From contig NZ_CP026118.1 of the NCBI RefSeq assembly GCF_004101865.1, positions 1,691,001-1,755,000 of the forward strand: DNA of 64,000 nucleotides. Reading direction: 5' to 3'. Position 1 is the stretch's first letter. Each line of letters begins with the position of its first letter. The DNA is from Halobacillus litoralis. Its GTDB lineage: Bacteria; Bacillota; Bacilli; Bacillales; Halobacillaceae. Position numbers and translations under genes: made by a program. Shown in pieces: positions 14,692 to 57,940 of this stretch. The notes beneath the pieces were generated by a model. The model had not been told where the DNA came from. It searched no databases and was given only the letters and a program-made list of their open reading frames with translations.

Positions 14692-14845
14692 CGAACTAGA
14701 AATCATAAAGCCAAACTACTATATAAGCAAAGCCCTATACGAATTTACTAACGGCTGGGGCTTTACCTTTTAATGGCTGTTCCATCACTTTACCACTCAT
14801 CCGTTCAACCCATTGATGAAGAAGGCTATTATGCAGGGTCCCCAT
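14692..14845 (-). pseudogene. Relic of the HEPN (hepT-like) gene 3' end and its terminator
   Basis: This stretch is clearly related to 54276-54425, the end of the intact HEPN gene and its terminator. Shared segments include CATAAAGCCAAACT, GGGGCTTTA and CATCCGTTCAACCCATTGATG, with point differences. Only the last 25 or so codons survive here. The hairpin AAAGCC...GGGGCTTT at 14730-14765 may now serve as a terminator for the DUF421 gene. Confidence 0.65.
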
Positions 14846-14906
14846 TAACTACACCACTTTATTCGTGTGCTACTCTATATATCTTTCGCAATTTAAGATT
14901 AAAAGA

Positions 14907-14943
14907 AAAGCCTCTCAAAAGTTTATGATCTCTTGAGAGGCTT
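14907..14943. repeat. GAGAGGCTT hairpin, repeat family copy
   Basis: AAAGCCTCTCAAAAGTTTAT and its partner TCTTGAGAGGCTT form a stem-loop. The family recurs at 12.0, 42.06, 53.53 and 57.78 kb, with variants at 24.86 and 25.08 kb. Here the groEL-like core that follows it elsewhere is missing. Confidence 0.7.
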
Positions 14944-15076
14944 GGAAATTTAAAAAATATTCCTAATCCATTCAAATTGTTCAGATGCGATCCCATATGT
15001 GAAGAAAGTTCATAGCTACTCTTTCAAGCTAAAAGAGTAGATCTTCAATAACCTTTCCATTAAAGTGTCACCTTTT

Positions 15077-15290
15077 TCACTTGGTATATTCAGCACTGAA
15101 ATACAGTGTTTCCCCTATGATTTCCATCAAATTTTGAGGTATTAAAATAAAGTCAAAGTTGGTTGGATATTTATTATCAACTTTGACCTTATTCCCTTTG
15201 AAGTAAAGCTTAACGGATTGTGGAACGCCATCAGGATAAGATGATGAACAAAATATTTCTGCTAACTTATCATTTGCCTTAACTAAAGTT
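15077..15290 (-). other. Orphan open frame after the giant repeat gene
   Basis: A frame of about 70 codons overlaps the last codons of the giant gene by one frame shift and runs on to 15077. It reads, in part, DATLVKANDKLAEIFCSSSY and IPQNLMEIIGETLYFSAEYT. It has no usable start codon or ribosome site. It could be the remains of a longer C-terminus of the giant protein cut off by a frameshift, or the tail of another gene. I do not recognise it. Confidence 0.3.
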
Positions 15291-18200
15291 GCATCTAAAA
15301 ATGAGCCTCTCTACATCAATGGAGATCTCTTTTTCTACGCATACCTGAATCCAATCTAACACACGTGTGACGCTTATACATATATCACCCTCTCGCTGCG
15401 CTTCCACCTCTTCACCTCTAGCTGAGTTGAACGTACCGTCTAATCGCACGGTTGCGTCAGTTTGAGTTTGAAGGCTTTGGTTCCAAAATAATCGAAGAAT
15501 AACAGAGCTGAGATTTCCATTTCTACACTCAAGGTCTAAAGTACATTCACTTAAAGCGACGGAGCAATGGATAACAGTGTCTTGAGGCGCATACATGAGC
15601 ACTTGATTATAAATCGTCCGTTGCACCGGATCACTCACACAAACTCCATTTGTACCCTCTATGGTAATGGTTACATCAAAAGTCATAGCTACATTTATGA
15701 CCTGCAACATTACTTGATCTCCACTTGGCAGCTGCACTGATCTATTTTCTCTGCGATTTGGATTCCCGACCTCCCAGCACGTAAGATTCTCAACCGTACA
15801 GAATCCCCTTCGATCATCAAGCGAACACGGATCTCCTCCCCCATCCAGTTCAACCCGGACATAGGTCGTTTCACCGTTCACAACTTCAATAATCACCGTT
15901 TCTGTTTCATATCCGCGCCTTGAGATACGTAAGCGGTAGGTCCCCTTCGGCACATCTTCAAAGCGGAATAATCCTTCTTCATCTGTAATGGAGGAAGCTA
16001 TAACGGTCCCGTTGGCATTTATCAACTCAACGAGGGCTCCGTGGATCGGGAAAGTAGTTTCCCGATCCACAACCTGACCGATTACCCTCCCCAGTGGAAT
16101 CCGTTGGAGTGTTACAGCTAATTCCAGAACCTCGTTTGCTTCAATTACGATAGTCTGGGTTTCTGTAATATAATTCTCAGCATCTACAGATAGGATAAGC
16201 TCACCCGTTGGCAGACCTGTAACAATTACATCTCCATTGCTGTCTGTCACTCCAGAACCGATAAGTGTTCCATCAGGGAGATTAACAGTTACACTCGCTC
16301 CTGAAATCGGAACTCCAGTCATACGATCCCTTACATTCACTGACAACGTACCAGGTTCACCTTGAAGCACAACCGTAATCATCGTCGTTTGGCCAGCGGT
16401 GATCATTGCACTTACAACGGCAGTTTCATACCCTGGCGCTGAGACAACCACCCGATAATCCCCCGCTTCCAAGTTCAACACGGTGAATTCACCCAGATCA
16501 TTCGCCAACAGAGTTTCCACAAGACGCCCTTGTTCATTGAAAATCTGTACACTGATCCCTTGTTCCATAATAGGGAATCCGTCTGAATCAAATACTTGAC
16601 CTTCGAGTGAGCCGGTTAAGGAAGTTAACGGAATATCCACTCTCTCGGTGACATCTGATTCCACCACAACGGCACCCGTGCTCGGACCATACCCTATGGC
16701 GCTTGCGGTGATTGTATAAAGTCCGGGTGAAAGCCCAGTTACTGTATACCTTCCATTTGAATCAGCAGTGGTACTAGCTACCACGGTAGACGTATCCCCG
16801 ATCACCCTCCTAATGACAAGATCTCCCCCGGTGATCCCCCGTTCCGTCGCCGAATCGTAAACAATTCCTGCTATCGCCCCCGGGTTTGGTTGGAGCACTG
16901 CATCTACTCCAGTCTCTTCTTCTCCTTGGGAAAGAATAACCCCTATAACCACACTCCCGAACCCAGCTGCGCTAAAGATTACAATGTGTGAACCCGGTGG
17001 CAGATTACCAATGACATAGGAACCATCAAATGCAGTTACCCCTGTTCCTAAGACCGTCTCATTTTGGTCGACTACACGTACCGTCGCTCCTTGAACGGGA
17101 AACCCATCATTTGATGTGACCGACCCACTGATTGAAGCCTGATCAGGCATTAGGAAAATATCGATGATCGTCACTTGATTTTCAATAACGGTTGCACCAA
17201 CTGCTCCTCTTGCGTAACCAGTTAAAGAGGCCGTTACAGTATATTCCCCAGGGGCCACTCCGTTGAACGAATAGAAACCATCCTCATCAGTTACAGCATT
17301 GGCTACAGGTATAAGACTTTGGGCAGGAAACAATTGAACAACAGCTCCAGGGAGCGGAAATTCACCAAACGCATCCAATACTTGCCCTTCTAGCATTCCA
17401 GGTGATGGACGAAGAGCCGCATTAACGATCGACGTTTCATTTGCCGAAATGGTTGTTCCGATACTTGCTGTTTGGAAAGAAGGGTGGAAAAGTACAATCG
17501 TATTGTTTCCTGGACTCAGCCCTTCCACACGGTATCTTCCTTCACTATCCGTCTGAGTAACAACAACAAGAATACCGTTATCATCATAAACCGAAACCCT
17601 TGTATCCCTTAGTCCTTCTCCTGTAACTGAAGAAGTGACTATCCCCTCTACAGCTCCTGCATCAGGAGAGAGAGCGAGTGTAACCATTGTCGTTATACCT
17701 GCCACAACAGATACTGTTGCGGTTTGTGATCCGGAGGAAGGGCTGAACGCAGTTACCGCGTATACTCCTGGGGTTATCCCCATTACTAAAAATTCCCCGT
17801 TGCTGTCTGTTGCGGCAGTCTGAACAATGGGTCCTGTCGGAGAAAATTGGCGGATGACAACAGTAACACCGATGAGTGGATCCCCGGTAGAATCATTGAT
17901 TACGAGACCTTGAATGTTACCAGGGTTTTCACTCAGTGCAAAATCTGCTTGTGTTAATTGATTCGACACAATGTCCACGTCCTGAATCCCGGTTCCGAAC
18001 CCTGAAGCTGAAACAACGATTCGATAGGTGCCTGCTGATAAGCTGTTAAATTGGTACACCCCATCAGGGTCGGTCACAAGTGTGGCTACTAAAGCTCTCG
18101 TTGCATCAAAAATCTGCACTACTGCTCCAGATATGGGATCACCAGTACCCTCAGCTGTTACAGTTCCCGTTACTCCTCCCGGGTTAGCTACTAACGCCAG

Positions 18201-21200
18201 TGTTGTTGAAACTGTTGCATTTGGAGATAATAAAACAGCTGTCGAAGCTGTGCCATATCCAGTGGCTGCAGCTGAAACGATAACGGTGGTTGGCGGAAGG
18301 CCAGGTATAGAGAAACTTCCATTTTCATCGGTTACTGTATTCGTGATTGGGAGTCCATTTATATCGGTTACGGTAACAACTGCTCCGCTAATAGGAGCAA
18401 GTGTATCCGCATCAAAAACTTCACCGATGATTCGTGCAGGATTCGGGCTTAAAGGAACGGATAAAAATGTAGTCCCTCCAGATTCAACAAGAGCTCCTAC
18501 AGTTGTCGCCGCATAATTCGATGCCGTAATAGAAAGTTGATAAGTTCCTGGAGAAAGACCCGTTATGAAGAATCCCCCCTGGGAGTCTCCCAACACGGTT
18601 TGAATAAGATTTCCCGCTTGATCAAACACTTTGATCTCGATGATGGAATTCAATATCGGCATTCCCTCTTCATCTGTTACAACGCCAGAAATACTGCCGA
18701 CCTCAGGGGACAAAGCAATATCCGCCGTTGTCGTTTGCCCGCTTTCAACTAGAGCACCCACGGTTGTTATTGCATAACCAACTGCAGAGCTAGAGATAGA
18801 ATAGGAACCAGGAGCTAGCCCTCCAATCACATAATTCCCATTTTCATCAGTCACCACAGACGCTACAACAACAGGAACACCTGCAACCGTCCTTGCAACC
18901 GTAACGGCGCCAATAATCGGCAAACCCGTTGTAATATCCGTTACTTGCCCATGAATATTGCCCGGGTTAGGGGTCAGAACAAAATTAACGTTGTTCAATT
19001 GTTCACCAGGAGTTAATATAATGCCCCCAAGAACAGTAGAAAACCCTGGTGCGCTTACAATTACCTGATGATTCCCTGGAGGCAGATTAGACAGGGCATA
19101 ATTCCCAAATTCATCTGTAACCGTTGTCCCTAACACTGATTCATTTTGATCAAGTACACGCACTGAAGCATTCGATATAGGATTTCCCGAGGTGGAACTG
19201 ACATTTCCTGTAATCGTTGCAGGGTTCGGAAGTAAAATAATCGTCGAGCTGCTCGTTTGATTGGAAAACACGCTGATACCTGTTTGCCCAGTCGAGTAAT
19301 TTTCAAAAGTAGCGATGAGGTTGTAGGACCCAGGTGATAACCCAGACAAAGAAAAGCTGCCGGTACCGTCAGTTACTAGCGTAGCGATCGGTAATAAACC
19401 TGAGGAAGGAAATACCCTTACAGAAGCCCCAATTAACGGATTCGCTTCAGAATCGAGCACCTGACCGGTAATCTCTCCTGGATCTGCTATTAAAATCGCA
19501 TTAACTACGGCTGTTTCATTCGGATTCGTCATAAGGCCAATCGATTGAGTCTGATAGTCCGGCCGACTAAACGTAATCGTGTACTGACCAGGTGTAAAAT
19601 CTTCAATTCGATATGAACCATCTACTGCGGTTTGGAAGGAACCAATCAGTACTCCATTCGTGTTAAACAATTGAATAAGCACGTCTGGTAACGGATCCCC
19701 TGTATTTGCGTCAGTCACAGTCCCGTCAACATTTGAAACCAACTGGGTTAATGTGAAATTTTGTGTAACCGTACTCCCAGGTTCAAGCAAAACAGAAGCT
19801 GTCTCTGTACCATAGACTGCGGCGGTTACAATAATTGTAAAAGACCCTTGTGGCAGTGAAGGAACCAAGTATCCTCCATCTCCATGAGTGATTGCCGTTG
19901 CAATAACAGGGCCAGCCGCTGTAAACTGGCGAACCACTATTTCAGCACCGACAATAGTGTCCCCATTTTCATCAGTGACCAGTCCCTGTAGGGTAGAAGG
20001 ATTAGGATCTAATGCAAAACTAGCAGTGGAAGTTTCGTTGGGTTGAATGGAAAAGCTAATGAGTTGATTGCTGTAGCCAGTTAAACTGGCTACGGCTGTA
20101 TAACTCCCCGGAGAAAGGTTGGTAGCTACATAATTTCCTAAGGCATCGGTTACCGTAGAGAATGTAAATGCCCCTGTTTGATCAAAGATTTGAATACTCG
20201 CTCCCGTAAGAACGGCCACAGTAACTCGGTCGATGACGCTCCCACTCACTGTCCCCGGGTTCGGTTCCAGTGACAAGGTTGTCGTTGAGGTTCCTCCCGC
20301 CACAAGAAATACAGCCGTCGATGCGGAACCAAAGCTTGTGGCTGAAGCGGAAACATTATACGTACCAGCAGGCAGGTTGTCGATTCTGAAATTACCTTCT
20401 GAATCCGTGAAGGCCGTACCTACAATGACTCCAGTAACCGGGGAGGTTACTGTCACGGCGCTTCCGCTGATTCCCATACCAGATTGGGCACTGATAACCT
20501 CCCCCGTTAATACAGCCGGTGAGGCATTCAGAGGAATAACGGTTTGCGTCACCTGCCCCGCTTCTACCAGGACTCCTACCGATCCGGTTTGGTAACCTGG
20601 TGCAGTGGCCGTAATGATGTACGTACCCGGTAAGACATCCAGAAACAAGAAACCACCATCAGGATTTGCGAGAATGGTAGAGATGACAACATTAAAATCA
20701 TTCAATAAGCGTAATTGCAGGTTTGCACCAGTAATCGGGTTTCCGTTCGAGTCGACCAACTGTCCTTCAATTGACCCTCTTAACTCTGACAAGTCAATAT
20801 TAGCGTTCGTTGTCGTGTCGCTGACGACTACTGCTCCAGCGGTTTGAGTGCCAAACCCTGTTAATGATGCTGTAACCGTATAGCTCCCCGGTGCCAAACC
20901 GGTAACAGAATAGTTACCAAATGAACTCGTCGTAACCGTAGCTACAATTTGATCTGCCGCACCAGCTTGGCGAACGATAACAATGGCATTAGCGAGTGGA
21001 TTTCCTGTGTCCACATTCGTGACCTGCCCGCTGATTGCGCCAGGGTTTGCAACCAAAGCAAAATTCACATTCGTAATACTTGCACCTGGTGTCAAAATAA
21101 CCCCGGATACTACCTGGCTGTAGCTGGGAGCTGAAACAACAATGGTTAAGGCGCCCGCCGGTAAATTGCTGACAGAATAGAATCCGCTGTCATCAGTCCC

Positions 21201-24200
21201 TGAAAGACTTATAGGAACTTCATTCGCATCCAATACGGTAATAGTGGCGTTAGGAATTGGATCTCCACCTTCATCTACTACCAATCCAGAAAAAGAGGCA
21301 GGATCAGCAATCAAGGTAAAATCAACGATCGCTGTGTCGTTTGCATTAACCGCAGCCCCTGCAGCAACCGTCGTATAGTTAAGAGCACTAGCTGTAAGAA
21401 TATAGCTTCCCGGAGCTATATTCTTAAATTCATATACTCCGTTTACATCTGCTAACACACTTGCGATAAAAACGTTACTCGCCGTGTAGAGCTGGACAAT
21501 GGTGTTGGATTGCATTGGCGTAACCGTTCCACCGATAGCCCCTGGTGAAGCTAAAAGAGACAGGTTGACAACCGTCGTAGTATTAGAAAGGACAATCGCT
21601 CCTCCAACCTTGGTTTGAAAACCTTCTGCACTTGCAATGACGTTGTAGTTCCCTGGTGCCAAACCATTCACCGAATACTGCCCCAATTGGTCCGTAATTG
21701 CGGTGCCAAGCTGCACATTGTTTTGATTAACAAACTGGACAATGGCGCCTCCAATCGGATCTGCCGTCGAATCGGAAGAAATGATCCCCTCGATAGCTCC
21801 TGGATTTGGTTCCAAAGAAATAAGGATGCTCTCCTGCCCCCCAGGTGGTACGGTAACCGTCGCGAAATTCGTTTGGAAGGATGGCGCGGAAGCTAAAACT
21901 GTATAGGTTCCTGGAACCAATTGATCCACCAAAAACTGTCCGCTCGTATCCGTAAACGTCGATTGAACGACTGCCCCATTGACATCCAGAACTCTGACTT
22001 CGATCTGAGCCCCTGTAATCGGATCCCCAGTCTGCTGGTTAATGACCGTACCAATGATTGATACAGGGTTAGGCTCTAAGGTAAAGTCTGCTGTGCTCGT
22101 CATGTTGGCTTGGATAAAAACACCTTGGGAAGCGGCTTGGAAGTCCGTGGCAGTAGCCGTGATGGTGTAGGAGCCCGGTGATAATTGAGGAATTGTGTAA
22201 AAGCCACCCTCATTTGCTACCCCTGTACCGACCACAGTATCTCCTACACTCGTTCTTACCGTGATCACCGCTCCAGGGATCGGATCCAGGTTTCCCTCCG
22301 TAACAGCCCCCTCCAGAATGCCTGGATTCTCCAATAAAGTGAAGTTTACTATAGTCGTTTGAAATTCAGTCACTAGTGCACCAAGTGCCTGGGTCTGGAA
22401 GTTCTCAGTAGAAGATCGGACCGTATAATTTCCAGGAGAAAGGTTCGGAAACGTATATTGCCCTGAACTATCACTAAGGGTAGAAGCGATAGCTATTCCG
22501 TTAAGAAGCAGCTGCACAACAGCACCGCTTATGGGCTGATTATTACTATTTTCTACCGTTCCTTGAATGACACCCGCGCGCAGGGTGAGCTGCGCATCCA
22601 GCATCGTCGTTCCATTTGCAACGATGATTACCCCAACCGTTTGGGCTGCATACCCCGATTGACTAATGGTCACCGTATAAGAACCTGGCGGAAGATTATC
22701 AATGGTATAGTTACCCACCCCATCCGTAAGGGCTGTCGCGATGGTAATCCCACTCTGGTCGATCACCTGGACAGAAGCCCCCTCAATAGGGTCTCCTGTT
22801 GTATTGTCTGTGACTTCACCAGACAACGTTCCTGGCTGATCGATCAAAGTAACATTCTGTATGACGGTTTGACCCTGAGCTACCGTAAATCCAAGCAAAC
22901 TAGTTTGGTACAAAGGTGCTGATGTCCTCAGCGTATAGGTTCCAGGGGCCAATTGATCGATCGTATACATGCCTAAAGCGTCAGTCGTTGTAGTCGCAAT
23001 GACGTTATTAGCGAGATCCAGCACTTGAACGGTGGCATTTGGTATCGCGACATCAGCTTCATTCTCGACTGTCCCCGTAACCGTTCCCGGCGAACCTGCA
23101 AGTTGAAAATCTTCTACCGTAGCAGCATTAGACTCAACCGTTGTCCCCCGTGTTTGAGATTGGTAAGTCGAAGCACTAACCGAAAGAATGTATGTGCCAG
23201 TTTGAACGGTGTTAAACGTATATTTCCCTTGAGCATTCGTCATCTCTGTTGCAAGAACCGTATTAAAGTTATCAATCAAAAGAACTTGTGCTCCCGGAAT
23301 AGGCATGTTTCCAGTCGCAGTGGCTGTTCCCGTAATCGAACCAGGGGCCGGTGTCAACAACAAATCGACGACTTGGGTTTGCCCCGCCGCTACTGTAGTG
23401 GAACGAGTCGCCGTCATGTAATCAGAAAAAATGTACGTTAACGAATACGTCCCAGGAGTCAGTGAAGTGAAATTGTAGGTTCCACTACCGTTTGTTGCTG
23501 TCGTCGCAATTAGTACATTCATAGCATTCCGCAACTCTACCGTAACTCCGGTTAAAGGAAGCCCATTCACCCCCGATGTAACTTGCCCTGTAATTGCTGC
23601 AGCGGATTGAACATTTACAGTATTCGATACCGTCTGAACAGGCAGCTGCCCCCCTGTAAAATCATCAAATCCTGTTGCCGTGACTGTATTCAGCGTTCTC
23701 GTTCCGGGGGTTGTAAACGTACCAATAACACCATACGTCAATGTCGCGGTCTGACCAGGATTTAAATTCCCAACATTCCAGGACAAGGTACCTGTGGAGC
23801 TGTTAAAAGCTGTCGACCCCAATGATGTAGAAATACCATTTACATTAGTTAACTGATTAATCTGGAAAAGATCATTGATGAACACCTGCCTCGCTATAGA
23901 TCGACCAGAATTCGTTATAGTGACTGTCTGTGACCAAGTCCCTTCATTCCCATTTAGTAAACTGGAAGGTCCAGAAGTAATAGACTTGGAGACAGATAAC
24001 TCTGCACGAACATCTACATCTTCCGGTGGGACGGGATTCGTCAAAGAGTTGACGAATTGAAAGCCTTCACTTGTACGTAGCGAATCTTTGTTATAATTAT
24101 TCGCATTCGCTGATGAAAAAATAATAAATTGAAGCGGTGTGCTTTCTGTAATCCCTAACGTCTGGAAAAAGGTACTCGCTGAAAACTGAAAATCTAAAAA

Positions 24201-24665: not shown

Positions 24666-24856
24666 ACATTTGCTTCCTCCTTTTTTGCGTTTTGATATTG
24701 ATATTAGTCTATTTTTACCCTGGCTTTTTGACTGTCCGCTTGCCCAGTTTTTCTCGACAACTACAATGGAGTTTCTTATAACGGTGATTTGTCCAACTGA
24801 ATTTCGAGTGGCCACGTTTTCGATAAAAGATGTAACCACTTGAAAAAGAAATATAA

Positions 24857-24897
24857 AAAAACCACTCAAAAGTTATAGAACTTTTGAGTGGTCTATT
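24857..24897 (-). terminator. Strong hairpin upstream of the giant gene
   Basis: On the minus strand, ACCACTCAAAAGTT pairs with AACTTTTGAGTGGT and is followed by TTTTTTATATTT, a good intrinsic terminator. It lies about 190 bases before the giant gene start and would stop any transcript arriving from the right. The sequence is a diverged member of the CTCAAAAGTT hairpin family. Confidence 0.75.
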
Positions 24898-49088: not shown

Positions 49089-49761
49089 AGATGACTATGC
49101 AATAGCTGAAATAGAGAAGGATTTTCTTGTAATTAATGGTTATGAAGTAGTTATTGTAGAAGATGGAAAAAAGGGGCTGGAGAATGCGTTGTCAGGTAAA
49201 TATGATTTAATACTGCTAGACCTAATGTTACCTAACATGGATGGAATCGAAATCATAAGGAGAATTAGAGATCAATTAAATATTCCAATATTAATGGTGA
49301 CTGCTAAAACTGAGGATATAGATAAAATTAAAGGATTGGGCTTAGGTGCAGACGACTACATTACCAAACCCTTTTCTCCAACAGAACTTATAGCTAGGGT
49401 GAAAGCAAACTTGGCGCAATATGAAAGAATGTTATCGGGAGAACCTCAACTGTCAATTCCTAAAGACATTGCTTATGGGCGCCTTCGTATAAATACACAA
49501 TCACGACGGGTCTATAAAGATAACGAAGAAATATTTATTAAGAACAAAGAATATGAGTTGTTATATTTCCTAGCCACAAATCCAGAGACAGTCTTCACTA
49601 GAGAGGAATTATATACACGTATTTGGGGACTAGATGCCTATGGTGACAGTAGAACAGTTTCTGTCCATATAAATCGGATAAGAGAAAAAATTGAAACAGA
49701 CCCCTCTAATCCCAATCATGTACAAACTGTTTGGGGAGCCGGTTATCGTTTTCAGCCATAG
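49066..49761 (+). CDS. OmpR-family response regulator
   Basis: A 231-residue two-domain regulator. The receiver has acidic residues in IIEDD, phosphoacceptor D52 in LILLDLMLPNMDG, T in LMVTAKT and K in DDYITKPF. The winged-helix DNA-binding domain spans about 130-230, with KEYELLYFLATNPETVFTREELYTRIWG and RTVSVHINRIREKIE..VWGAGYRF. The start codon 49066 has GGAGG six bases upstream and lies 23 bases inside the kinase gene. It is the cognate partner of that kinase. The target genes may have been lost from the decayed neighbourhood. Confidence 0.92.
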   Translation: MKRILIIEDDYAIAEIEKDFLVINGYEVVIVEDGKKGLENALSGKYDLILLDLMLPNMDGIEIIRRIRDQLNIPILMVTAKTEDIDKIKGLGLGADDYITKPFSPTELIARVKANLAQYERMLSGEPQLSIPKDIAYGRLRINTQSRRVYKDNEEIFIKNKEYELLYFLATNPETVFTREELYTRIWGLDAYGDSRTVSVHINRIREKIETDPSNPNHVQTVWGAGYRFQP

Positions 49762-49840
49762 ATTAATCAAATATAGGGACGTGCATATTTAACATCGATT
49801 TTTGTATTCCTTTAAGCAAATTTTCACAAACCCTTAGGTT

Positions 49841-50155
49841 GCTTTATTATTTATTTTGTCCTTTTTTGCTTCGGCATTCCAGTCAGCCAATACACCTAAT
49901 TGGTTGGCTTTAATTACTGACGTAAACCTGCCAGAGCATCGAGGAACTGCCTTTAGCGTAGCTAATCTGTTTAACAGTTTAGGACGTACCCTCGGGAATA
50001 TAGGTGTAGCAATAGTACTTGGGATTGTTTCTACTCATTTTGTGGAATCATACAGCTATGTTGTAACATTATCCCTACTACAAATATTTCTTATCCCTTC
50101 TGCTATTGGTTATTTAAAATGGCTAAAGATAACGTTACTGATATCAAACAAGTGA
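49841..50155 (+). pseudogene. MFS transporter C-terminal remnant
   Basis: About 104 codons without a credible start, reading SFFASAFQSANTPNWLALIT, VNLPEHRGTAFSVANLFNSL and LGNIGVAIVLGI. This is the C-terminal half of a major facilitator transporter, with the E-H-R-G-x-A-x-S motif after transmembrane segment 10 or 11. The N-terminal 280 or so residues are absent. Confidence 0.7.
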
Positions 50156-50196
50156 AAAAAACGCTCAAACGTCGGGTCGAAGTGGATAATAAATAA

Positions 50197-50503
50197 CTCT
50201 CGGGCTTGTTATTATGGAAGCGATGGCATCCGGCCTGCCTCTCGTTGCTGCCAAGAGCGGTCCGACGTGTGAACAGATCGAGAACGAACGGGACTGCTCT
50301 ATGACCCGGAGAAGGATGGAGATTTCACAAAAACTGTATGTCGCTTTGAAGACGAGATTCTGAGTAACCGATTAGCGCTGAATGCACACAAGGATATTGC
50401 TGAGCTCGGATGGGCTGGAGTTGCTGAACAAATGGGAGATTTATATGAAGAAGTGATCGGACTGGATAGAAAACGTCCAATGAAAAAGAAAAAATTAATG
50501 TAA
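50197..50503 (+). pseudogene. GT4 glycosyltransferase C-terminal remnant with frameshift
   Basis: It begins LGLVIMEAMASGLPLVAAKS, the E-x7-E region of GT4 glycosyltransferases (the donor-binding end), and continues GPTCEQIENE. A frameshift follows near 50288, after which the other frame reads TGLLYDPEKDGDFTK and continues to KRPMKKKKLM and a stop. The N-terminal three quarters are missing. The gene once preceded gtrA, a common pairing in lipid- or teichoic-acid glycosylation loci. Confidence 0.72.
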
Positions 50504-50530
50504 GAAGCACCAAAAGAAGAGGAATAACCG

Positions 50531-50974
50531 ATGAAGAAAAAAAAGATGCGAAAAGGGCCATTTCAAATTATGACGTTCAGTGCGATCGGAATAGCTAATG
50601 CGGCAGTAGACATCGGTTCATTAAATGTGCTGCTGGTGCTTTTTCCTACAGATGAGCGGGGAATTCTCGCCTTATATAATACAATTGCTTATTCACTTGC
50701 AGTGGCAAACAGCTATTTTTGGAATTCATATATCACGTTTAGACACAGTGATGAAGGAAGCAACAGACAACGGATTGCATTTATACTCCAGGGAATTGTC
50801 AGTCTCGGTGTCAATAATCTCGTGTTTCTTGGAGCAAATCAGCTCTTTCAAATCATTGAAATCCCACGCTGGCTCAGGTATAACCTAGCGAAAGGTCTCG
50901 CAATGTTTTTATCCTTTACTGCCAGCTTTTTCATGGTAAAGCATTTTGTGTTCAGAGATTCCTCAAAAAAATAA
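50531..50974 (+). CDS. GtrA family membrane protein
   Basis: A 147-residue protein with four hydrophobic segments and the GtrA/DPMS family pattern: ITFSAIG-like start (IMTFSAIGIANAAVDIGSLNVLLV), YNTIAYSLAVANSYFWNSYITFRH, and a final FLSFTASFFMVKHFVFR. GtrA proteins are thought to move polyprenyl-linked sugars across the membrane for surface glycosylation. A GAGG site precedes the ATG. The neighbouring glycosyltransferase gene is now a remnant, so this gene may have lost its partner. Confidence 0.85.
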   Translation: MKKKKMRKGPFQIMTFSAIGIANAAVDIGSLNVLLVLFPTDERGILALYNTIAYSLAVANSYFWNSYITFRHSDEGSNRQRIAFILQGIVSLGVNNLVFLGANQLFQIIEIPRWLRYNLAKGLAMFLSFTASFFMVKHFVFRDSSKK

Positions 50975-51439
50975 TATGCAGTAACAAGTATTTTTTTAAC
51001 CCGGTTCCAGCCCTGATAGGAGGATTTGGGTTGTATAGTAGGAGGTCTCATCTTAAGGCACAACAAATATTAAGTTTGCATTTATTTATGAGAAAGCTCG
51101 TTTCTTTTTTATCAACGATCGTCTTAAATCCTTAAGCCCCCTCCCCTTCCTTCTTTTGATAACTTTTAGTATGTTAGGGGCTTTGTATCTGATACTTCTT
51201 TATTATTGTTTGATAAACATCACGCGCTAAGCTTGTTGCGGCTGTTGAGAGCCAGATATTAGCTGATGAAAAAATTAATACAAATGCTTCAAGTTCTTAC
51301 ATTATTAGAAACACAAGTGGCTCGTCACAGTATTTGAGAAGAAGACCTGTATTTTTTCTTTTAGCGATTTTTCTTCTCTTTCAAACCTCTTCATTTAATG
51401 AAGACGATGATCTTTATTGCAGACTGAATGGAAAAGCAC
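50975..51439. other. Intergenic region, no gene recognised
   Basis: About 465 bases. A plus-strand open stretch near 51230-51440 (..LVAAVESQILADEKINTN..) has no start or ribosome site and is unrecognised. The region between the end of gtrA and the convergent esterase gene shows no convincing terminator. Confidence 0.4.
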
Positions 51440-52510
51440 TTACTTTCGCAGCACCTGCAAAAAATGGCTGGAAACTTCTTTGATCGCATCCGCTGATTGA
51501 GGATAGTAGCCGAGCTTTCTGACAAAAGCATGATCCATTCCTTTATATTTAAAATGGAGTACTGGAACTCCTGCCTCTAGCTGCTGGGTGGAAAACTCTT
51601 CTCCCTGAATTCGCAAAAAATCGAACTCAGCTGTCACGATCGTGGTAGGTGGCAGAGTGGTTTTATCTTTGCGCAGTAACGGAGAAACAAGCGGCAGAAA
51701 CACATCTTCTAAATTAGTAAGATAGAGTGACTGAATGAACATAAGAGAATCTTTCATAGTCACGAGCTCTTGGCGAATTAACTCAGCATCTTTGGACATG
51801 TCATAATGTTTTACATTCCAAGTATTTCTTGATACTTCAGACAAATCTACCAGCGGGCAGAACATCCCCATATAACGTATTTCCCATTTTTCCCCTAAAC
51901 TTAACTGATGTACCCCAAGAGCAAGATTCCCCCCGACACTGTCTCCCACAAGGCCCATTTGATCAACATCAACATGAAACTTTTCGGGATTTTCGTAAAT
52001 ATATCGCACTGCTTCCAAACAATCGTTCAAGCCATCCTGATAAGGATTCTCCGGCGCTAGACGATACTCTATCCCCACTACTACCGCGTTGGCTTCTTGC
52101 GCTAAGAACTTGCAGATATTTTCCATCACGTCCATATCTCGCTCAAAAAAACCTCCGCCGTGAAGATAAATAAGGACCGGCTTTTTTTCTGTTGTCTGGT
52201 TATAAATCCCCAAGGGAATTTCATGATCCTCCAAAATGATTTTAATCGTTTCCGAACGAATTCCACTACTTAAATCTTTATTATTTACTTCCACTCTCTT
52301 TCGGGTAATTTCCAGGTCATCGATTTCGAGCGGACGTCTTACGTTCGGATCTGCCTCGTTTGTAAGAAAATTTTTCACACGCGGATCTAAACCGCGGCTC
52401 CCCTCCTGAAAAGGAATTTCTTTATTAATAACGCTTAATCTTCCTTTTTTTGAATACGTGGCATTTTCTTGTAATCTTGCGGTAAGCTCCTCGTGCGTGT
52501 GGTTCATCAC
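51440..52510 (-). CDS. Alpha/beta hydrolase, HSL-type esterase
   Basis: A 356-residue hydrolase of the hormone-sensitive-lipase family. The oxyanion-hole motif is YLHGGGFF (about 115-122). The nucleophile serine is in GDSVGGNLAL (S191), the acid residue is likely in the TAEFDFLR segment and the histidine in MDHAFVR near the C-terminus. No signal peptide is visible, so it is probably cytoplasmic. It would hydrolyse short- to medium-chain esters or lactones; the natural substrate cannot be inferred. GTG 52510 is seven bases from AAGGAGG and ATG 52507 is ten bases; both are plausible. It is a single gene. Confidence 0.87.
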   Translation of the reverse strand: MMNHTHEELTARLQENATYSKKGRLSVINKEIPFQEGSRGLDPRVKNFLTNEADPNVRRPLEIDDLEITRKRVEVNNKDLSSGIRSETIKIILEDHEIPLGIYNQTTEKKPVLIYLHGGGFFERDMDVMENICKFLAQEANAVVVGIEYRLAPENPYQDGLNDCLEAVRYIYENPEKFHVDVDQMGLVGDSVGGNLALGVHQLSLGEKWEIRYMGMFCPLVDLSEVSRNTWNVKHYDMSKDAELIRQELVTMKDSLMFIQSLYLTNLEDVFLPLVSPLLRKDKTTLPPTTIVTAEFDFLRIQGEEFSTQQLEAGVPVLHFKYKGMDHAFVRKLGYYPQSADAIKEVSSHFLQVLRK

Positions 52511-52578
52511 ATACCATCCTCCTTAGCAAAACAGCCGGGTAGCAGCCTGTAGGCTGACCCGACTGGTAAATATCTAAA

Positions 52579-53215
52579 TTACCGGTCCTCTTTTAACCGA
52601 GCTATACAGGGAAACAGCTTCTGCTTGGAAAACCCAGGACAAAAAACAGTATTTTCTATTATATTTCCATTTACCTTTAAAAAGAAACGTTTAATCAAGC
52701 AATCGTAGGACCTCAAGATCTTTATTATGCGAAAGATACTAACCGTAAACGACCAACAGTTTATATTTCTTAAAGAATTTGCGAGAATCGCTTCTGCAAG
52801 CTTTTGAATCTCATCCACATTATTATAGAAGGTGTCGATTCTGCGTATAAATTGGTCTTTAAATGTATAATAGTGCAGACTAATAAATGCATTTGCAGTA
52901 GTCGAATTACTGAGTTGAGCCCGCTTTTCCACAGGAATAAACGTATCGCCTGTTCGGCTAAATGTAGCGGAAGCCCCCCCCTTTTATCACGCAACTGTTC
53001 ATCAACTTTTTTCGCTGTAGATAGTGTTATTGCTTTTTCGTATAGTTCTGACCGAACTGCACCCGGATTTTTTCCCGTGGCCTGGGTCAATAATAAAGTG
53101 ATACCCAGACAAAGTCTTTTCACCACTTTGGTTTGGTGCATCCCCCAACTTTAACGTTTCTACATTGACTTTATATAATTGCCCACTATCCGCATCAACT
53201 GTGGGTTGTAAAATA
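52579..53215 (-). pseudogene. N-acetylmuramoyl-L-alanine amidase pseudogene with two homopolymer frameshifts
   Basis: Reading across three frames gives an Amidase_3 (CwlC-type) N-terminal half: GYHFIIDPGHGK, then NPGAVRSELYEKAITLSTAK, then ASATFSRTGDTFIPVEKRAQ with ISLHYYTFKDQ. DPGHG and the E in YEKAITL are zinc ligands of the family. Frame changes occur at a T-run at 53068-53073 (A6 on the coding strand; A5 would restore frame) and a C-run at 52974-52981 (G8; G9 would restore it). The C-terminal part is further decayed, so this is probably a true pseudogene rather than only sequencing error. Confidence 0.72.
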
Positions 53216-53529
53216 AATAGGCAGAATATAGACTACCAATATACCTCCTGGTCCAACTAGATTGGCTTAGGCATGAGGTTGTAACGACGGTTCCATATAA
53301 AAGAGAAGCAATTCTTTATGATGAGAGATTTACAGAATTAGAAAAATAACTGAGGAGGTTATATAGCGTTTTACTAGTATCATATAGAGCGTTGTTTAAT
53401 CTGAGCCTTCCATTATTATTCCCTATACTTGAAGACACAGTTTCGAGTTAATTATATTTTCATATAATAACAATTATTCCAAAATCACCCATTAACTAGC
53501 TCCAACTCTTATAAATTAGGAATAAAAGA
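53216..53529. other. Intergenic region with a 33-codon remnant
   Basis: A plus-strand start-less frame at 53251-53349 reads VQLDWLRHEVVTTVPYKREA and ends at a stop codon. It is not recognised. No other gene or clear regulatory site is seen before the hairpin at 53530. Confidence 0.35.
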
Positions 53530-53815
53530 AAAAGCCTCTCAAAAGTTTATAAACTCTTGAGAGGCTTTTAGGTTTTGTGGACGATTTTAAAAATCAGTCA
53601 AAATCCAGTCAAACTGTTATCAAACCCTATGATGGAAGGGGGGTGGGCGCAATCACATCATGCCGCCCATTCACTCGCTTAGTTGAAAAGACTATAACAA
53701 ATCCCGTAGAACCTTGTTATAACAAGGTTCTCGTTAGCAAGTAAAATGATTAACCACAATAAGTTTTAATACTTTGTGAACAGTATCCAGTCATAACCCA
53801 GTCCTCTATAGTGGA
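53530..53815. repeat. Attachment-like repeat module with intact groEL-end-like core
   Basis: It has a perfect hairpin AAAGCCTCTCAAAAGTTTAT / CTCTTGAGAGGCTTTT, then CAGTCAAAATCCAGTCAAAC, then the core TCACATCATGCCGCCCAT (53653-53670), which on the minus strand reads Met-Gly-Gly-Met-Met-stop. It ends with GTTTTAATACTTTGTGAACA and CAGTCATAACCCAGTC. It parallels 42061-42365 and 57776-57918. The hairpin would also act as a terminator for minus-strand transcripts. Confidence 0.75.
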
Positions 53816-53905
53816 ATAACAGACGTAATTCAATACCCTTGGTGGTGTCTGTTTTCCTGTATAAGCTATAATTTTATTATTTAGAATACAAACAAGAGTT
53901 TTATT

Positions 53906-54157
53906 TTATGACCAACACACTTCGTCGATCTCATAATCTTCCGAGGCACCCGCTTCCCCAGTTATACAAGAAAAACACCCCTGGTTAGCAACTGCACTGC
54001 CAATAGCCCAAATTTCCTGATCACATTTGAAGCAAATCACCCCATTTTCCTTATCATTAACCGCCTCTTTAAGCCTTTTCTTTAATTTGTTTGGTTCTTC
54101 GTCAGGATTACTCTTACAATGCTTATTCACAAAGGAGATTATAGAAATGGGTATCAT
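53906..54157 (-). CDS. Small Cys-rich protein, possible zinc-binding
   Basis: An 83-residue protein starting MIPISIISFVNKHCKSNPDE. It carries two C-x2-C pairs, in VICFKCDQEIWAIGSAV and GCFSCITG, about 15 residues apart, which could bind one zinc ion. An acidic tail follows. AAAGGA lies nine bases before the ATG. It sits between the attachment-like repeat and the HEPN/MNT pair on the same strand. This gene is absent from the other copies of the module, so it looks like an insertion into this copy. Function unknown. Confidence 0.55.
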   Translation of the reverse strand: MIPISIISFVNKHCKSNPDEEPNKLKKRLKEAVNDKENGVICFKCDQEIWAIGSAVANQGCFSCITGEAGASEDYEIDEVCWS

Positions 54158-54317
54158 AAATGATTTCCTTTCTTATGCTTTTTTTGATATTTTATATTAA
54201 CTAAAAGGCATACCATTCATGCAGCCCTGTATTAGAGGACTTGATTATATAAAGTTCACAAATCCAAAAACACCTTCTCTGCGAACTATAAATCATAAAG
54301 CCAAACTTCTATATAAA

Positions 54318-54355
54318 CAAAGCCACGGACGTAGTTGCTAACGTCTGGGGCTTTA
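54318..54355 (-). terminator. Terminator of the MNT-HEPN operon
   Basis: On the minus strand, AAAGCCCCAGACGT pairs with ACGTCCGTGGCTTT and is followed by GTTTATAT. It lies about 12 bases after the HEPN stop codon. Relics of it accompany the relic HEPN copies at 14.7, 25.4 and 42.4 kb. Confidence 0.75.
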
Positions 54356-54366
54356 TCTTTTAATAG

Positions 54367-54765
54367 CTATTCCATCACTTTCCCATTCATCCGTTCAACC
54401 CATTGATGGAGAAGGTTATTATACTTGGCCAAATTTTTGTGGATTTTAATGGCCACTTCTTCATTATAGGTATGGACGGTCAAATTACGATCATTGACCA
54501 TTTCCAAAGCTAGAACGGCCTCCTCATCCTCCAACAAGTGGACCTCCCTGCAACTGCGAATGACGCTCTTCGGAGAGCCGACATCTACCCCTTCTATGTC
54601 ATATAAATATTGCTTAGCCGCTTTCCAACTAGCCTCGAAAGAAAATTCAAATCGTTGAATCGCTGCATCTCGTTCCACATCGTTCGGGTTTTCAAGGTTA
54701 GCTAGCTTTTCAAAGGAAGCCAACGCTTTTTCTGCTGCTTCTAATCTTTGGCGTAATCTTTCCAT
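54367..54765 (-). CDS. HEPN-domain toxin-like protein (HepT/HI0074 family)
   Basis: A 132-residue helical protein of the nucleotidyltransferase-substrate-binding HI0074 family. It begins MERLRQRLEAAEKALASFEK, includes RFEFSFEASWKAAKQYL, and carries the HEPN R-x4-H motif in VNDRNLTVHTYNEE. HEPN proteins of this type are RNases whose activity is blocked by the partner MNT enzyme, which AMPylates them (type VII toxin-antitoxin), though some members only bind nucleotide. It overlaps the MNT gene by 25 bases. Three truncated relics of it occur elsewhere in the window, showing that this module was brought in several times. Confidence 0.88.
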   Translation of the reverse strand: MERLRQRLEAAEKALASFEKLANLENPNDVERDAAIQRFEFSFEASWKAAKQYLYDIEGVDVGSPKSVIRSCREVHLLEDEEAVLALEMVNDRNLTVHTYNEEVAIKIHKNLAKYNNLLHQWVERMNGKVME

Positions 54766-55064
54766 AAAATCCCCTCCTCTTTCACATGTTGGACTAGAAC
54801 TTCTTTGGCATCATGTAAATCCACTACATCTACCTTGTAAGGGATGGTAGACTCTTCAATTTGCTCGATCAGTTTGTTCCATTTAAAAGGAGAGATCGGG
54901 GAGTGGGATTCGATAGCGATGTCGATATCCGAACTATGTTTTTCTTCCTGTCGGGCCCAGGAACCAAATAAGTAAACACGCGCTTTTTCCTTGCCGAGTT
55001 GTTCATTCAAAATCGACTTGAGTTGTTCTAGAATTTGCTGCCGTAAATATGCAGGAACTCCCAT
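54741..55064 (-). CDS. MNT-domain nucleotidyltransferase, antitoxin of the HEPN pair
   Basis: A protein of about 107 residues of the minimal nucleotidyltransferase family. It has the catalytic VYLFGSWARQEEKHSSDIDIAIE, with G-S and D-x-D metal-binding aspartates, and a third acidic residue in KVDVVDL. The likely start is ATG 55064 with GAAGGG upstream; the frame opens earlier at 55145 without a ribosome site. In HepT/MntA systems the MNT protein adds AMP to a tyrosine near the HEPN active site to neutralise it. The HEPN sequence here contains HTY within its motif, which fits. The IS21 element lies about 145 bases upstream. Confidence 0.86.
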   Translation of the reverse strand: MGVPAYLRQQILEQLKSILNEQLGKEKARVYLFGSWARQEEKHSSDIDIAIESHSPISPFKWNKLIEQIEESTIPYKVDVVDLHDAKEVLVQHVKEEGILWKDYAKD

Positions 55065-55261
55065 AATATCCCTTCCTCTTTTTTGTCCCATTATAGCATA
55101 TGGACATCTTCTCTCTGCAGGATTTTCCTTACCCACTTCGACCATTCAGAAATTCGATCGGTAACGGGGCCAATATTAACTACACCAAAACCTAAATATG
55201 TCTTCCATTGTCAACAACGGTTTGAAATTCCCTGTTTTCAACGGAATCAAATTCCCTATTA

Positions 55262-56023
55262 TCAGCGAATATTGGCTGGCTGGATGCCGGCCTTTTTCTT
55301 TTCCCTCAGACGATAAGAGTCTCCTTTAATATTAAAGGTCGTGGAATGGTGGATTAGACGATCCAAGATGGCCGTTGCTAAAACTTCATCTCCAAAGATC
55401 TTTCCCCATTCAACGTACGATTTATTTGAAGTAATAATCATTGCTCCATGTTCGTATCTTCTTGATATGATTTGGAAAAGTGTGTGTGCGCTGAGTTCAT
55501 CGAAACTAAAGTAACCTAGTTCATCAATAATTAGTAATTCTGGGCGGCTATACCTTTTAATAATCCGTTGGATTAACCCTTGTTTTTCTGCCTTTTGGCA
55601 TTCAGCGATAAAATCATTGGCTGTAATAAAAAGTGCTTGGTGTCCGTTCGTGATAGCTTCAAAAGCCATGGAAATGGCTAAATGTGTCTTTCCTACTCCT
55701 GGTGGTCCAAGGAGTAGGATATTATCTCCATTATGGATATATCGACCCGATAACACTTCTTTAACTCTTCGTTCATCTATACTCGGTTGAAAACTAAAGT
55801 CGAAGTCATGAATACTTTTAATGTAGGGAAGCTTTGCTTTTTTAAGACGCTTATCTAAAGCTGCCTTTTCCTTCTGTTCGATTTCTTGTGATAATAGCGT
55901 GATTAAGAAGTCCGAATATGGTACATTATTTTTAGATGCGTCTTCAAGCAGGCCATCTATTTGATCGGCGGTGTGATGCCAACCGATTTCTTCTAAGCGT
56001 TCAACTAAAAGGTTTGTGGTCAT
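55262..56023 (-). CDS. istB: IS21-family helper ATPase IstB
   Basis: A 253-residue AAA+ ATPase related to DnaC. It has an N-terminal ERLEEIGWHHTADQIDGLLE, Walker A LLGPPGVGKTHLAISMA, Walker B LLIIDELGYFSFDELSAHTLFQII and sensor region GAMIITSNKSYVEWGKIFGD. It assembles on DNA and activates the IstA transposase and target choice. The start overlaps istA by four bases, as usual in IS21. Length and motifs are complete, so the element may be active. Confidence 0.94.
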   Translation of the reverse strand: MTTNLLVERLEEIGWHHTADQIDGLLEDASKNNVPYSDFLITLLSQEIEQKEKAALDKRLKKAKLPYIKSIHDFDFSFQPSIDERRVKEVLSGRYIHNGDNILLLGPPGVGKTHLAISMAFEAITNGHQALFITANDFIAECQKAEKQGLIQRIIKRYSRPELLIIDELGYFSFDELSAHTLFQIISRRYEHGAMIITSNKSYVEWGKIFGDEVLATAILDRLIHHSTTFNIKGDSYRLREKKKAGIQPANIR

Positions 56024-57255
56024 GATTGATCACCTCCTTCTAGTTGCTCATAAATTTGAAGGGAACGTTGTTCTACTTCAATATCAGGGGACTGTAAACG
56101 GCTGTGGGTCGGCAAACCATCAGTAGTCGTTTGCAGTCCTTTATAATGTTTAAGGTTTATATGGTCTCTTACCTTACCAGTCATAATAGGATGTTTAGCC
56201 ACACATTCATAATGGTCATAAATTTCTAAATGATGATCTAATGTTTCTTTTATCTTCAACTCTTGTCCAACGTACCGAAAAGGTACGGAATACCTTTTAC
56301 CGAGATAGGAAACAAAGCAATCCTTACTCACTTTCCTAATTTCCCAATGATGAATAGGAAACAATGGTTTCGTATTTGACGTCATCAAATGCTTCTGTTC
56401 ATGCTGGAAACGATTATGAGGTGATTCGAGCGTTGTCTGATGAACCTTACGGTTTGCTACTTGATCTAACCACACTCTTACATCTTCATTTAAAGCTTTT
56501 AACGTAGGTTCATGCTTGCGCTGCAAAAAGTTCTTCTTTAAATATCCAACAACATTTTCTACTTTTCCCTTTGTTTGTGGTCGGTGTGGTTTACATGCCT
56601 TTGGAACAATTCCATAGTAAGCTAAAAATTCTTCGAACTTCCGATTGAATCTTATTTCGACTGGGCTATGCCTGATAACAGCAGTTTTCATATTGTCATA
56701 CAAAATTTGCTCAGGCACTCCATTGAAATAAGCAAAAGCATTCATATGGCACTTCATTAACGTTTCTAAATCCATGCTGTCCGTAAACTCTACATATTTA
56801 AGCCTCGAATAACTCAGTAAAATCACAAAAGCATAAATATCCTTTATTTCACCATCAACTGCGAATTTACCAATGTGTCCCCAATCCATTTGAGCTTGTT
56901 TTCCAGGAGGAGTCTCGTATCTTATGGTAGCTTGCTTTTTTGGTCGCACCCGATATGGTCGAATGAAATCCCGGAGGATTGTCATTTTGCCCTCGTACCC
57001 CATAGATATAATTTCATCTAATAATACGGTGCAGTTCGTGGTACCTTCCTTCATGCGTTTCTCTAAGTAATCTTTGAAGGGATCTAGCTTACTACCTTTA
57101 CTTGGTACTTTCTTCATCCTTGGTAACTCTTCAGATTTTATGTACTTCCTAATAGTTTTAGGGTCAAAGCCAGTCTCTTTAGAGATAGCTGTGATTGACC
57201 ACCCTTTTTGAAATAGTTCTCTAATCATAATGAATTCCCCAATCTTGATCATCAT
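56020..57255 (-). CDS. istA: IS21-family transposase IstA
   Basis: A 411-residue DDE transposase. The N-terminus has a helix-turn-helix (FQKGWSITAISKETGFDPKTIRKYI). The catalytic core shows the first Asp in QMDWGHIGKF, the second in LYDNMKTAV and the Glu in KPHRPQTKGKVENVVGYLKKNF. It ends near PFRYVGQELKIKETLDHHLEIY. GGAGTG lies just before the ATG. The gene appears intact and lies about 100 bases from the right terminal repeat. Confidence 0.94.
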   Translation of the reverse strand: MMIKIGEFIMIRELFQKGWSITAISKETGFDPKTIRKYIKSEELPRMKKVPSKGSKLDPFKDYLEKRMKEGTTNCTVLLDEIISMGYEGKMTILRDFIRPYRVRPKKQATIRYETPPGKQAQMDWGHIGKFAVDGEIKDIYAFVILLSYSRLKYVEFTDSMDLETLMKCHMNAFAYFNGVPEQILYDNMKTAVIRHSPVEIRFNRKFEEFLAYYGIVPKACKPHRPQTKGKVENVVGYLKKNFLQRKHEPTLKALNEDVRVWLDQVANRKVHQTTLESPHNRFQHEQKHLMTSNTKPLFPIHHWEIRKVSKDCFVSYLGKRYSVPFRYVGQELKIKETLDHHLEIYDHYECVAKHPIMTGKVRDHINLKHYKGLQTTTDGLPTHSRLQSPDIEVEQRSLQIYEQLEGGDQS

Positions 57256-57359
57256 TTCTACACTCCAAATCTTTATCTAGTATAGAAATGATTATCTGTT
57301 ATTATTGGGGAATTTGAAACCGTTGTTATTAGGGATTTTAGCACCGTTGTTCACACCAT

Positions 57360-57475
57360 TAACTGCGCTTTAAAGTTATGGCAAAAAATCTTTGTTAGTT
57401 AAATTCTCAAGTGCTTTGAATTATGAATTTCATCCTTATATTTCAACTATTCGTTCAGACCCATAATTTTATCTA
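57360..57475. other. Flank of the IS21 insertion, no feature
   Basis: A+T-rich sequence that was contiguous with 55065-55208 before IS21 inserted. No gene is recognised in either part. Confidence 0.35.
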
Positions 57476-57742
57476 TCAAAATAACTTCATCTGCTGCCCA
57501 CTACTATTTTCTTCATCATTGCCTTGAACTTTGTAGTCCATCGACTTATATCCCTGCATGCGCTTTTCATACATGGCTTTCAACTCGGGAACCCGATAAT
57601 CAACATAGTCATACACTTTACTTATCCGTATGAACACGATGCAATCTACCGACATATTGCTGGAGCGTTCCTTTCCAGGCGATTGGCATGGCAAGGAACT
57701 TCTTGTAAATATCTCCAAAATATTAATCCTGGTGTAAACAAT
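57476..57742 (-). pseudogene. Remnant of a superfamily II helicase/restriction protein C-terminus
   Basis: The frame has no credible start, but its last 45 residues read VYDYVDYRVPELKAMYEKRM followed by QGYKSMDYKV. These resemble the end of the COG1061-type DEAD/DEAH helicases (YDYVD--VP-L--M--KR--GY). The rest of the gene is missing, and its upstream end runs into the hairpin repeat. It may be a leftover of another defence or restriction gene. The assignment rests on a short stretch. Confidence 0.4.
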
Positions 57743-57775
57743 TGTATCCCCCTGATCATATTTTAGAATAAAAGA

Positions 57776-57940
57776 AAAGCCTCTCAAGAGTTAATAAACT
57801 CTTGAGAGGCTTTTAGGTTTTAGTGGACAATTTTAAAAAAACAGTCAAAATCCAGTCAAATTGTCCTTAATCCCTATGATGAAAGGGGGTTCGGGCGTTA
57901 TTACATCATGCCGCCCATGGATTCCCTAAGATAAATAATG
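57776..57940. repeat. Attachment-like repeat module, hairpin plus groEL-end-like core
   Basis: It has a perfect hairpin AAAGCCTCTCAAGAGTTAAT / ACTCTTGAGAGGCTTTT, then CAGTCAAAATCCAGTCAAAT, and the core TTACATCATGCCGCCCAT (57901-57918), which on the minus strand gives Met-Gly-Gly-Met-Met-stop. Unlike the others, the sequence after the core differs from the other copies, so a junction lies at or near 57918. About 100 bases further on, GTATGTCA occurs twice (58020-58060). Confidence 0.72.

Follow-up and report, generated by a model that had tools for sequence, protein, structure and literature searches.

Decayed integrative elements that have lost their integration and transfer genes while keeping their attachment (att) sites are known as cis-mobilizable elements (CIMEs); in Streptococcus salivarius, composite islands of up to three elements occur at rpmG, rpsI, fda and rplL, together with cargo-free micro-CIMEs of 130-220 bp (PMC7563491, PMC5704250). 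The 3' end of groEL is a described bacterial attachment site (attB) for the staphylococcal phage-inducible chromosomal island SeCISE48, whose att site is overlapped by the last 18 bp of the gene, left unaltered by insertion (PMC8125051), and the Geobacillus prophage phiOH2 is described as flanked by groES/groEL, with its integrase gene at the terminus (PMC8303945). In the 64,000-nucleotide stretch of Halobacillus litoralis DNA analysed here (contig NZ_CP026118.1, positions 1,691,001 to 1,755,000; “the window”), an original prediction made from the letters alone had described a recurrent module of hairpin, direct repeats and a core reading as the end of groEL, and had proposed serial integration at the groEL 3' end. 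This proposal fares well: the groEL 3' end very probably acts as attB for the tyrosine integrases of integrative and conjugative elements (ICEs) and prophages, the modules being the junctions of serially inserted elements. It is favoured by the position and strand of groEL, two integrases adjoining cores, matched arm repeats, the same layout in relatives, and groEL ends that are less occupied or unoccupied in some of them.

Accretion of ICEs and CIMEs at the 3' end of a gene and the use of groEL as attB by staphylococcal islands are both already described, so the stack belongs to a known kind of system; it is larger than the published composite islands compared. As in the S. salivarius islands, integrase-less elements with left and right att ends (attL, attR) and an ICE form a tandem row at a housekeeping gene's 3' end, in the order CIME-ICE-target gene, and micro-CIMEs occur; unlike those islands, for which at most three elements are given, the stacks here are longer (seven additional exact cores behind groEL in the relative G017), and the present one includes a prophage and several arm-repeat classes on one core (PMC7563491, PMC5704250). 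SeCISE48 resembles them in its attB, but is presented as a single phage-packaged island with its own integrase, whereas here an ICE, a prophage and integrase-less elements are stacked (PMC8125051). phiOH2 is comparable to the groEL-proximal prophage of this stack, but is one prophage, with no stack mentioned in the passage compared (PMC8303945). In an integron cassette array folded single-strand attC sites are used by IntI next to attI; the att ends described here carry arm repeats and are accompanied by phage- or ICE-type integrases. Tycheposons and other helper-dependent elements also carry cargo and use tyrosine recombinases to move into fixed sites, though these are other sites in other hosts; mycobacteriophage Bxb1 integrates at groEL1, and the ICESt1-related elements of Streptococcus thermophilus are reportedly a related CIME case. 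Judged by titles and abstract openings, no groEL-anchored stacks in Halobacillus were found in the literature searched. What is new is the length of the stack, its recurrence across the family and the arm-repeat code.

The recurrence of the module near 25.2, 42.2, 53.65 and 57.9 kb is real and far above chance. Matches to GAGAGGCTT number seven in the window against 0.46 expected, and none of 100 shuffles got to seven; for the core ATGGGCGGCATGATGT, at up to three mismatches, there are four against 0.33, again reached by none of 100 shuffles. All window cores lie on the minus strand (Table 1), in keeping with the single orientation first reported, and translate there to ATGGGCGGCATGATG plus a stop, which is the C-terminal end of GroEL. 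The copies are less uniform than had been described: the core at 25.2 kb is degenerate and accompanied by a different hairpin sequence, and at 42.2 kb one hairpin arm has diverged. The copy at 14.9 kb was not hairpin-only, as had been thought, since an end profile also aligns its arm region; its core is unrecognisable. The end profiles were trained without this genome and still recover its element ends.

Pairwise alignment of the five window copies by segment gave an exact shared core (100% identity among the copies at 42.2, 53.6 and 57.9 kb) between mosaic flanks. In the arm right of the core, identity is 87% for 25.2/42.2, 69% for 25.2/53.6 and 42.2/53.6, and 31-43% in all three pairs involving the 57.9-kb copy; in the hairpin-to-core segment it is 83% for 53.6/57.9 and 19-60% in the remaining nine pairs. 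Because the copies that resemble one another on one side of the core are not those that do so on the other side, the module reads as a mosaic of neighbouring elements, each side of one core apparently belonging to a different element. Most likely it is an attachment-site junction composed of the relic of an integrase-gene 3' end (the hairpin), arm repeats, the last groEL codons (the core) and the arm of the next element.

groEL itself, suspected to lie outside the window, is 86 kb to its right on the minus strand (C1:1841173-1842807); a second groEL copy was ruled out by the single PF00118 (Cpn60) match genome-wide. A genome pattern search at up to two mismatches placed five cores, at 1716209, 1733188, 1744645, 1748893 and 1791525 (the last an additional copy right of the window), all on groEL's strand and at most 125 kb downstream of it. 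With groEL they form, in one orientation over 125 kb, the tandem array of direct core copies seen in composite islands. From groEL leftwards the elements delimited by these cores are E6, E5, E4, E3, E2 and E1, followed by the decayed end at 14.9 kb, which would close an older element; those bearing an integrase together with phage or transfer genes, the prophage E6 and the ICE E5, are next to the target gene, again as in composite islands. A 281-bp module query taken from the 53.6-kb copy has 13 matches in the genome at E up to 1, all within 1705906-1841192. Another 16-mer core with one mismatch is found on the same strand at 1671494, 45 kb beyond (about 0.1 expected by chance), with a weak left-end profile match (E 0.011). 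It is a doubtful left edge for the stack: G006 has orthologues of the adjoining genes (g002/g003 just to the right, 1663560-1664975 on the left) behind its groEL, in unchanged order, which suggests that the surroundings are resident chromosome. In G004, G020 and G013 the orthologue of a DegV-family gene (window 9518-10369) follows groEL at a distance of about 10-13 kb; in the present genome the distance is about 140 kb, so the resident chromosome is probably reached at that point and the groEL-anchored tract would span about 135-140 kb. The gene at 13938-14684 was useless as a synteny landmark, having relatives in 41 of 41 genomes searched.

Past each core there are short repeat pairs (GACTGG, TGACATA, CCTCACA, and GCTAAC-type or GCTCAT-type) at near-fixed distances, about +44/+55 to +69/+80 past the core; ahead of the next core the same kind of pair is usually located near -136/-124. 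Arm typing covered 51 inter-core intervals in 16 genomes, including three of the 22 family genomes outside Halobacillus; 12 intervals not typable at both ends were dropped. The two ends are of equal class in 28 of the 39 doubly typed intervals, against a shuffled mean of 16.9, with 28 reached in one of 20,000 shuffles; leaving out the doubtful interval to 1671494 gives 28 of 38, a shuffled mean of 16.4 and none of 20,000. Across a shared core, the arms of neighbouring elements match in 15 of 31 cases. The typing rules match 2.4% and 2.6% of random positions; since the motifs were picked by eye from these very data, the rates of typing are on the optimistic side, the shuffle test being less affected, and kinship among genomes is uncorrected.

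Of eight PF00589 (tyrosine integrase) matches in the genome, only g105 and g177 are inside the tract, and both terminate next to a core: g105 (genome 1790265-1791443, plus strand) adjoins the core at 1791525, and g177, the kind of recombinase to be looked for near groEL, ends about 90 bases from the groEL stop. In an alignment of seven integrases R211, H331, R334, H357 and Y367 are invariant; these we take to be the tyrosine recombinase catalytic residues. Among the best 80 of 360 g105-family loci in genome contigs, groEL is within the fetched locus in 22, representing ten genera; in these the integrase ends at most 600 bases from groEL in 15 and 2.2-4.2 kb from it in five, with two unmeasured (distances were taken for loci among the first 27 of the best 80). 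An integrase of the g105/g177 family, intact or broken, is carried by seven of 13 groEL-proximal delimited elements and one of 23 distal ones (Fisher p 0.0013), or p 0.0021 minus two doubtful distal intervals, the one that runs to 1671494 and G004:6258-15939, the far core of which falls within the DegV gene. Such an integrase, or a piece of one, occurs in nine of all 51 intervals. When 12 genomes were scanned with PF00589 (G009, G002 and G021 were left out), a distal element of G024 also proved to have a 201-aa recombinase of a different kind, and further recombinases lay within the proximal elements of G016 and G008. No PF00589 match was found in E2, E3 or E4. Likewise, Pfam scans found no relaxase or type IV secretion system (T4SS) model in E3 or E4, among eight of the 16 listed E3 open reading frames (ORFs) of at least 100 aa (the other eight overlapping these) and four of five E4 ORFs, with ORFs below 100 aa and 57476-57787 outside the scan; E3 and E4 keep both attL and attR, with GACTGG-class ends and exact cores, as CIMEs do.

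The hairpin had been treated as an independent feature; from its frame, place and arms, all shared with integrase genes, it is most likely the fossil 3' end of one. In g105 it sits within the last codons (EKASQKFSELMRG), many integrase-less ends read in the same frame KASQKF or a near variant, with a stop either directly after it or a few residues on, and one end in G009 reads ATIYSQITETM-stop-EKASQKFSELMRG-stop; other ends, those of the ThrE cassette among them, do not read like an integrase C-terminus. Together with the frame-broken integrase copies of G005, G017 and G018 and a 76-aa C-terminal remnant in G015, these would form a decay series from intact gene through broken gene and remnant to hairpin codons.

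The same layout recurs in relatives. Of 44 family genomes, 33 have at least two exact cores; within the same genus the figure is 15 of 22. A backward-read control pattern is present in none of the family genomes. The exact cores total 142, of which 39 are groEL's own and 59, from 27 genomes, are on groEL's contig, co-oriented and at most 200 kb downstream; that is 59 of the 60 non-groEL cores within 200 kb. Less occupied or unoccupied groEL ends were also found: in G003 and G006 groEL is followed directly by a probable native terminator, and the same kind of terminator comes after the far-end core in four stacks or stack pieces (G007, G002_C16, G002_C26, G021_C508).

A mechanism consistent with these observations would run as follows. 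Each element would bring a core that duplicates the final groEL codons, and strand exchange would occur there; insertion would thereby restore the end of the gene, often giving it another stop codon and placing a new hairpin behind it. The displaced core, now farther downstream, would mark the junction to the older element. If newcomers insert at or near the groEL-proximal site, the stack would grow from groEL outward, the prophage E6 being nearest, then the ICE E5, then E4 to E1. Older members would lose integrase and transfer genes while keeping both att ends (arm repeats and core) and the last integrase codons, which would remain as the terminator-like hairpin. The resulting relics would be CIME-like carriers of accessory cargo, still open to the action of an integrase, whether resident or incoming, provided that their att ends have retained function.

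A variant explanation, possible but somewhat doubtful, is that the integrase-less elements are more than decayed relics and form a non-autonomous lineage whose minimal ends measure about 150 bp and whose members are moved in trans by integrases that recognise the arm repeats they carry, the array gaining, losing and reordering cargo. Among 25 GACTGG right ends, the 15 with 44/55 spacing include none with an integrase of the g105/g177 family, and the two that have an integrase (broken in G018; G019) are spaced 56/67. At those 15, homology inward from the core stops at a median of 144 nt (123-163 in 73 of 99 pairs), and at their other ends at 160 nt (122-202 in 26 of 37); the cargo past these shared segments is usually dissimilar. 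Sharing is longer in some pairs, however (more than 190 nt in 12 of 99 at right ends, more than 350 nt in eight of 37 at left ends), and if integrases were lost independently while selection preserved the hairpin, the inner boundary would look no different. G007 and G011 share a 7.0-kb integrase-less element at 97-98.5% identity, although their groEL genes are 94.4% identical and the next neighbours of the element differ. The ThrE exporter pair, an integrase-less cassette, was found in 13 records; in 69 of 78 genome pairs its similarity exceeds that of groEL, with which it correlates at only r = 0.28. Both point to horizontal movement, but with groEL as the sole yardstick this indicates transfer and does not show its mechanism, and homologous recombination could move the same segments. 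A cargo-free element of 287 bp in G024 would suit trans mobilisation as well. Against it, the eight integrase loci of the present genome include none closer to the GACTGG-type enzyme of G019 than g105, at 61%. A 24-mer of the common integrase-less end had no matches in viral contigs.

It is very improbable that the copies arose by duplication or rearrangement of one ancestral groEL-end module within the chromosome. Rearrangement among copies, which the original prediction had allowed for, does find partial support in the 11 of 39 doubly typed intervals with mismatched ends, including E2 (25.2-42.2 kb), with GACTGG on the left and TGACATA on the right. On the other hand, arm classes differ among elements and match within them above chance, two intervals are a prophage and an ICE with integrases of their own, and the groEL-DegV distances of relatives are short. 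We give hardly any credence to the idea that the modules are ordinary intergenic hairpin-terminator repeats resembling the groEL end by chance. The hairpins are indeed terminator-like, a strict stem rule being satisfied at 12 of 23 groEL-proximal ends and in 4.75% of 400 control windows (the strict terminator rule had no match at seven of the 23, own genome included); but a non-mobile repeat family, named at the outset as an outcome that would count against integration, is hard to reconcile with 281-bp query matches confined to the tract, with arm positions fixed relative to the core, with integrases ending at such sites, and with similar end modules enclosing a prophage, an ICE and otherwise mostly unrelated cargo.

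Serial integration thus remains the preferred reading, and several observations weigh against it. No excision or integration has been observed. Six of the 13 proximal elements are without an integrase of the g105/g177 family; the mismatched intervals, with the 12 of 51 untypable at both ends, imply that some intervals are composite or rearranged. Twelve exact cores in seven genomes are more than 200 kb from groEL on its contig, one within 200 kb has the opposite orientation, and the other 31 belong to further contigs or to the unmapped G021. In this genome the stack has no firm left edge, and a hairpin kept as a terminator could constrain the same letters as an integrase relic.

Serial integration at groEL would provide a natural series of decay and stacking at one essential gene, in a halophilic family of Bacillales, from phage or ICE with integrase through broken integrase and a relic of about a dozen codons to a 287-bp cargo-free remnant. 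Expression of groEL may depend on the terminators brought by successive insertions, and the arm-repeat code would predict which integrase can still move which relic. More speculatively, and with less confidence than the serial insertions themselves, there may be a family-wide, groEL-anchored cassette system, in which the integrases of visiting ICEs and phages insert, excise and reshuffle in trans non-autonomous elements whose ends, about 150 bp long, consist of core, two arm repeats and a terminator-like integrase relic; the arm repeats would then be a code assigning a cassette to an integrase class, and each insertion would give groEL a new stop codon and terminator.

Table 1. Element ends, cores and elements in the window (window coordinates).
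Feature	Position	Strand	Basis
Putative decayed right end (hairpin and arm region, GACTGG class), leftmost recognised element; core unrecognisable	14891-14983	-	profile trained without this genome, model 50-155, E 9.9e-13
E1, about 10 kb (about 15.0-25.2 kb); cargo a 3196-aa repeat protein	ORF 15279-24869		ORF list and Pfam scan
E1 right end (hairpin and arms, TGACATA class)	25076-25232	-	R_TGACATA profile, 72 bits
Degenerate groEL-end core, 3 mismatches	25219-25234	-	pattern search
E2 left end, GACTGG arm repeats	25219-25390	-	L_GACTGG profile, 120 bits
E2, 17.0 kb: luciferase-like monooxygenase, short-chain dehydrogenase/reductase (SDR), cobalamin uptake/salvage genes; GACTGG left end, TGACATA right end	25235-42197		Pfam scans, end typing
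E2 right end, TGACATA class; hairpin reads ASQKFCELMKG-stop	42047-42212	-	R_TGACATA profile, 125 bits; translation
Exact groEL-end core	42198-42213	-	pattern search
E3 left end, GACTGG repeats	42196-42368	-	L_GACTGG profile, 145 bits
E3, 11.5 kb: ATP-binding cassette (ABC) exporter, histidine kinase/response regulator, GtrA, alpha/beta hydrolase; both ends GACTGG	42214-53654		Pfam scans
E3 right end, GACTGG; hairpin reads KEKASQKFINS-stop	53515-53669	-	R_GACTGG profile, 134 bits; translation
Exact groEL-end core	53655-53670	-	pattern search
E4 left end, GACTGG repeats	53653-53808	-	L_GACTGG profile, 122 bits
E4, 4.2 kb: nucleotidyltransferase/HepT-like toxin-antitoxin pair and IS21-type insertion; both ends GACTGG	53671-57902		Pfam scans
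E4 right end, GACTGG	57750-57917	-	R_GACTGG profile, 136 bits
Exact groEL-end core	57903-57918	-	pattern search
E5 left end, TGACATA repeats	57901-58061	-	L_TGACATA profile, 97 bits
E5 (ICE), 42.6 kb, to genome 1791535; window part has type III restriction-modification	57919-64000		Pfam scans, interval delimitation

The cargo differs from element to element, as had been noticed, with cobalamin genes, ABC and two-component genes and a toxin-antitoxin pair between successive copies (Table 1). E6, of 49.6 kb, is a contractile-tailed prophage with portal, terminase, tail sheath, tape measure and the integrase g177; beyond the window, E5 encodes PDC-M22 proteins, a TraG-type coupling protein (T4SS) and g105. 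The insertion in E4 includes an IS21 transposase pair. E2 is probably composite, given that its ends are of different arm class; its cobalamin genes are accompanied by a cobalamin riboswitch, and its cobyric acid synthase (CobQ) has a match at E up to 1e-30 in five of 22 genomes of the genus, that of G017 lying 325 kb from groEL.

Some smaller observations concern sites in the relatives. The 287-bp element of G024 (locus L112) is at 16381-16668 counted from groEL, between two cores, and resembles a micro-CIME, its right end fused to its left end with no cargo. The opposite-strand core is G059:C3:24899, 7 kb from groEL, and among the 12 far copies there is a second cluster of five co-oriented exact cores, G047:C1:4755008-4825263, 1.8 Mb from groEL in a single-contig genome. 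Loci L161-L165 have GACTGG-like integrases, 61-62% to g105, that end 2.2-4.2 kb from groEL; in L163 (the G019 contig) cargo lies between an integrase-like end hairpin and an intact integrase, a possible route of cargo capture.

Within the window, a partial right-end profile match at 12012-12079 (E 1.8e-4) is possibly one more decayed end, and a hairpin of the same kind is found at 24847-24907 (E 0.002-0.006), at the 5' end of the ORF for the 3196-aa protein of E1. This protein has 30 carboxypeptidase-regulatory-like repeat matches, plus SdrD/SpaA-type matches. In E2 a thiamine pyrophosphate (TPP) riboswitch is located at 29653-29753 on the minus strand, ahead of the SDR and luciferase-like monooxygenase genes.

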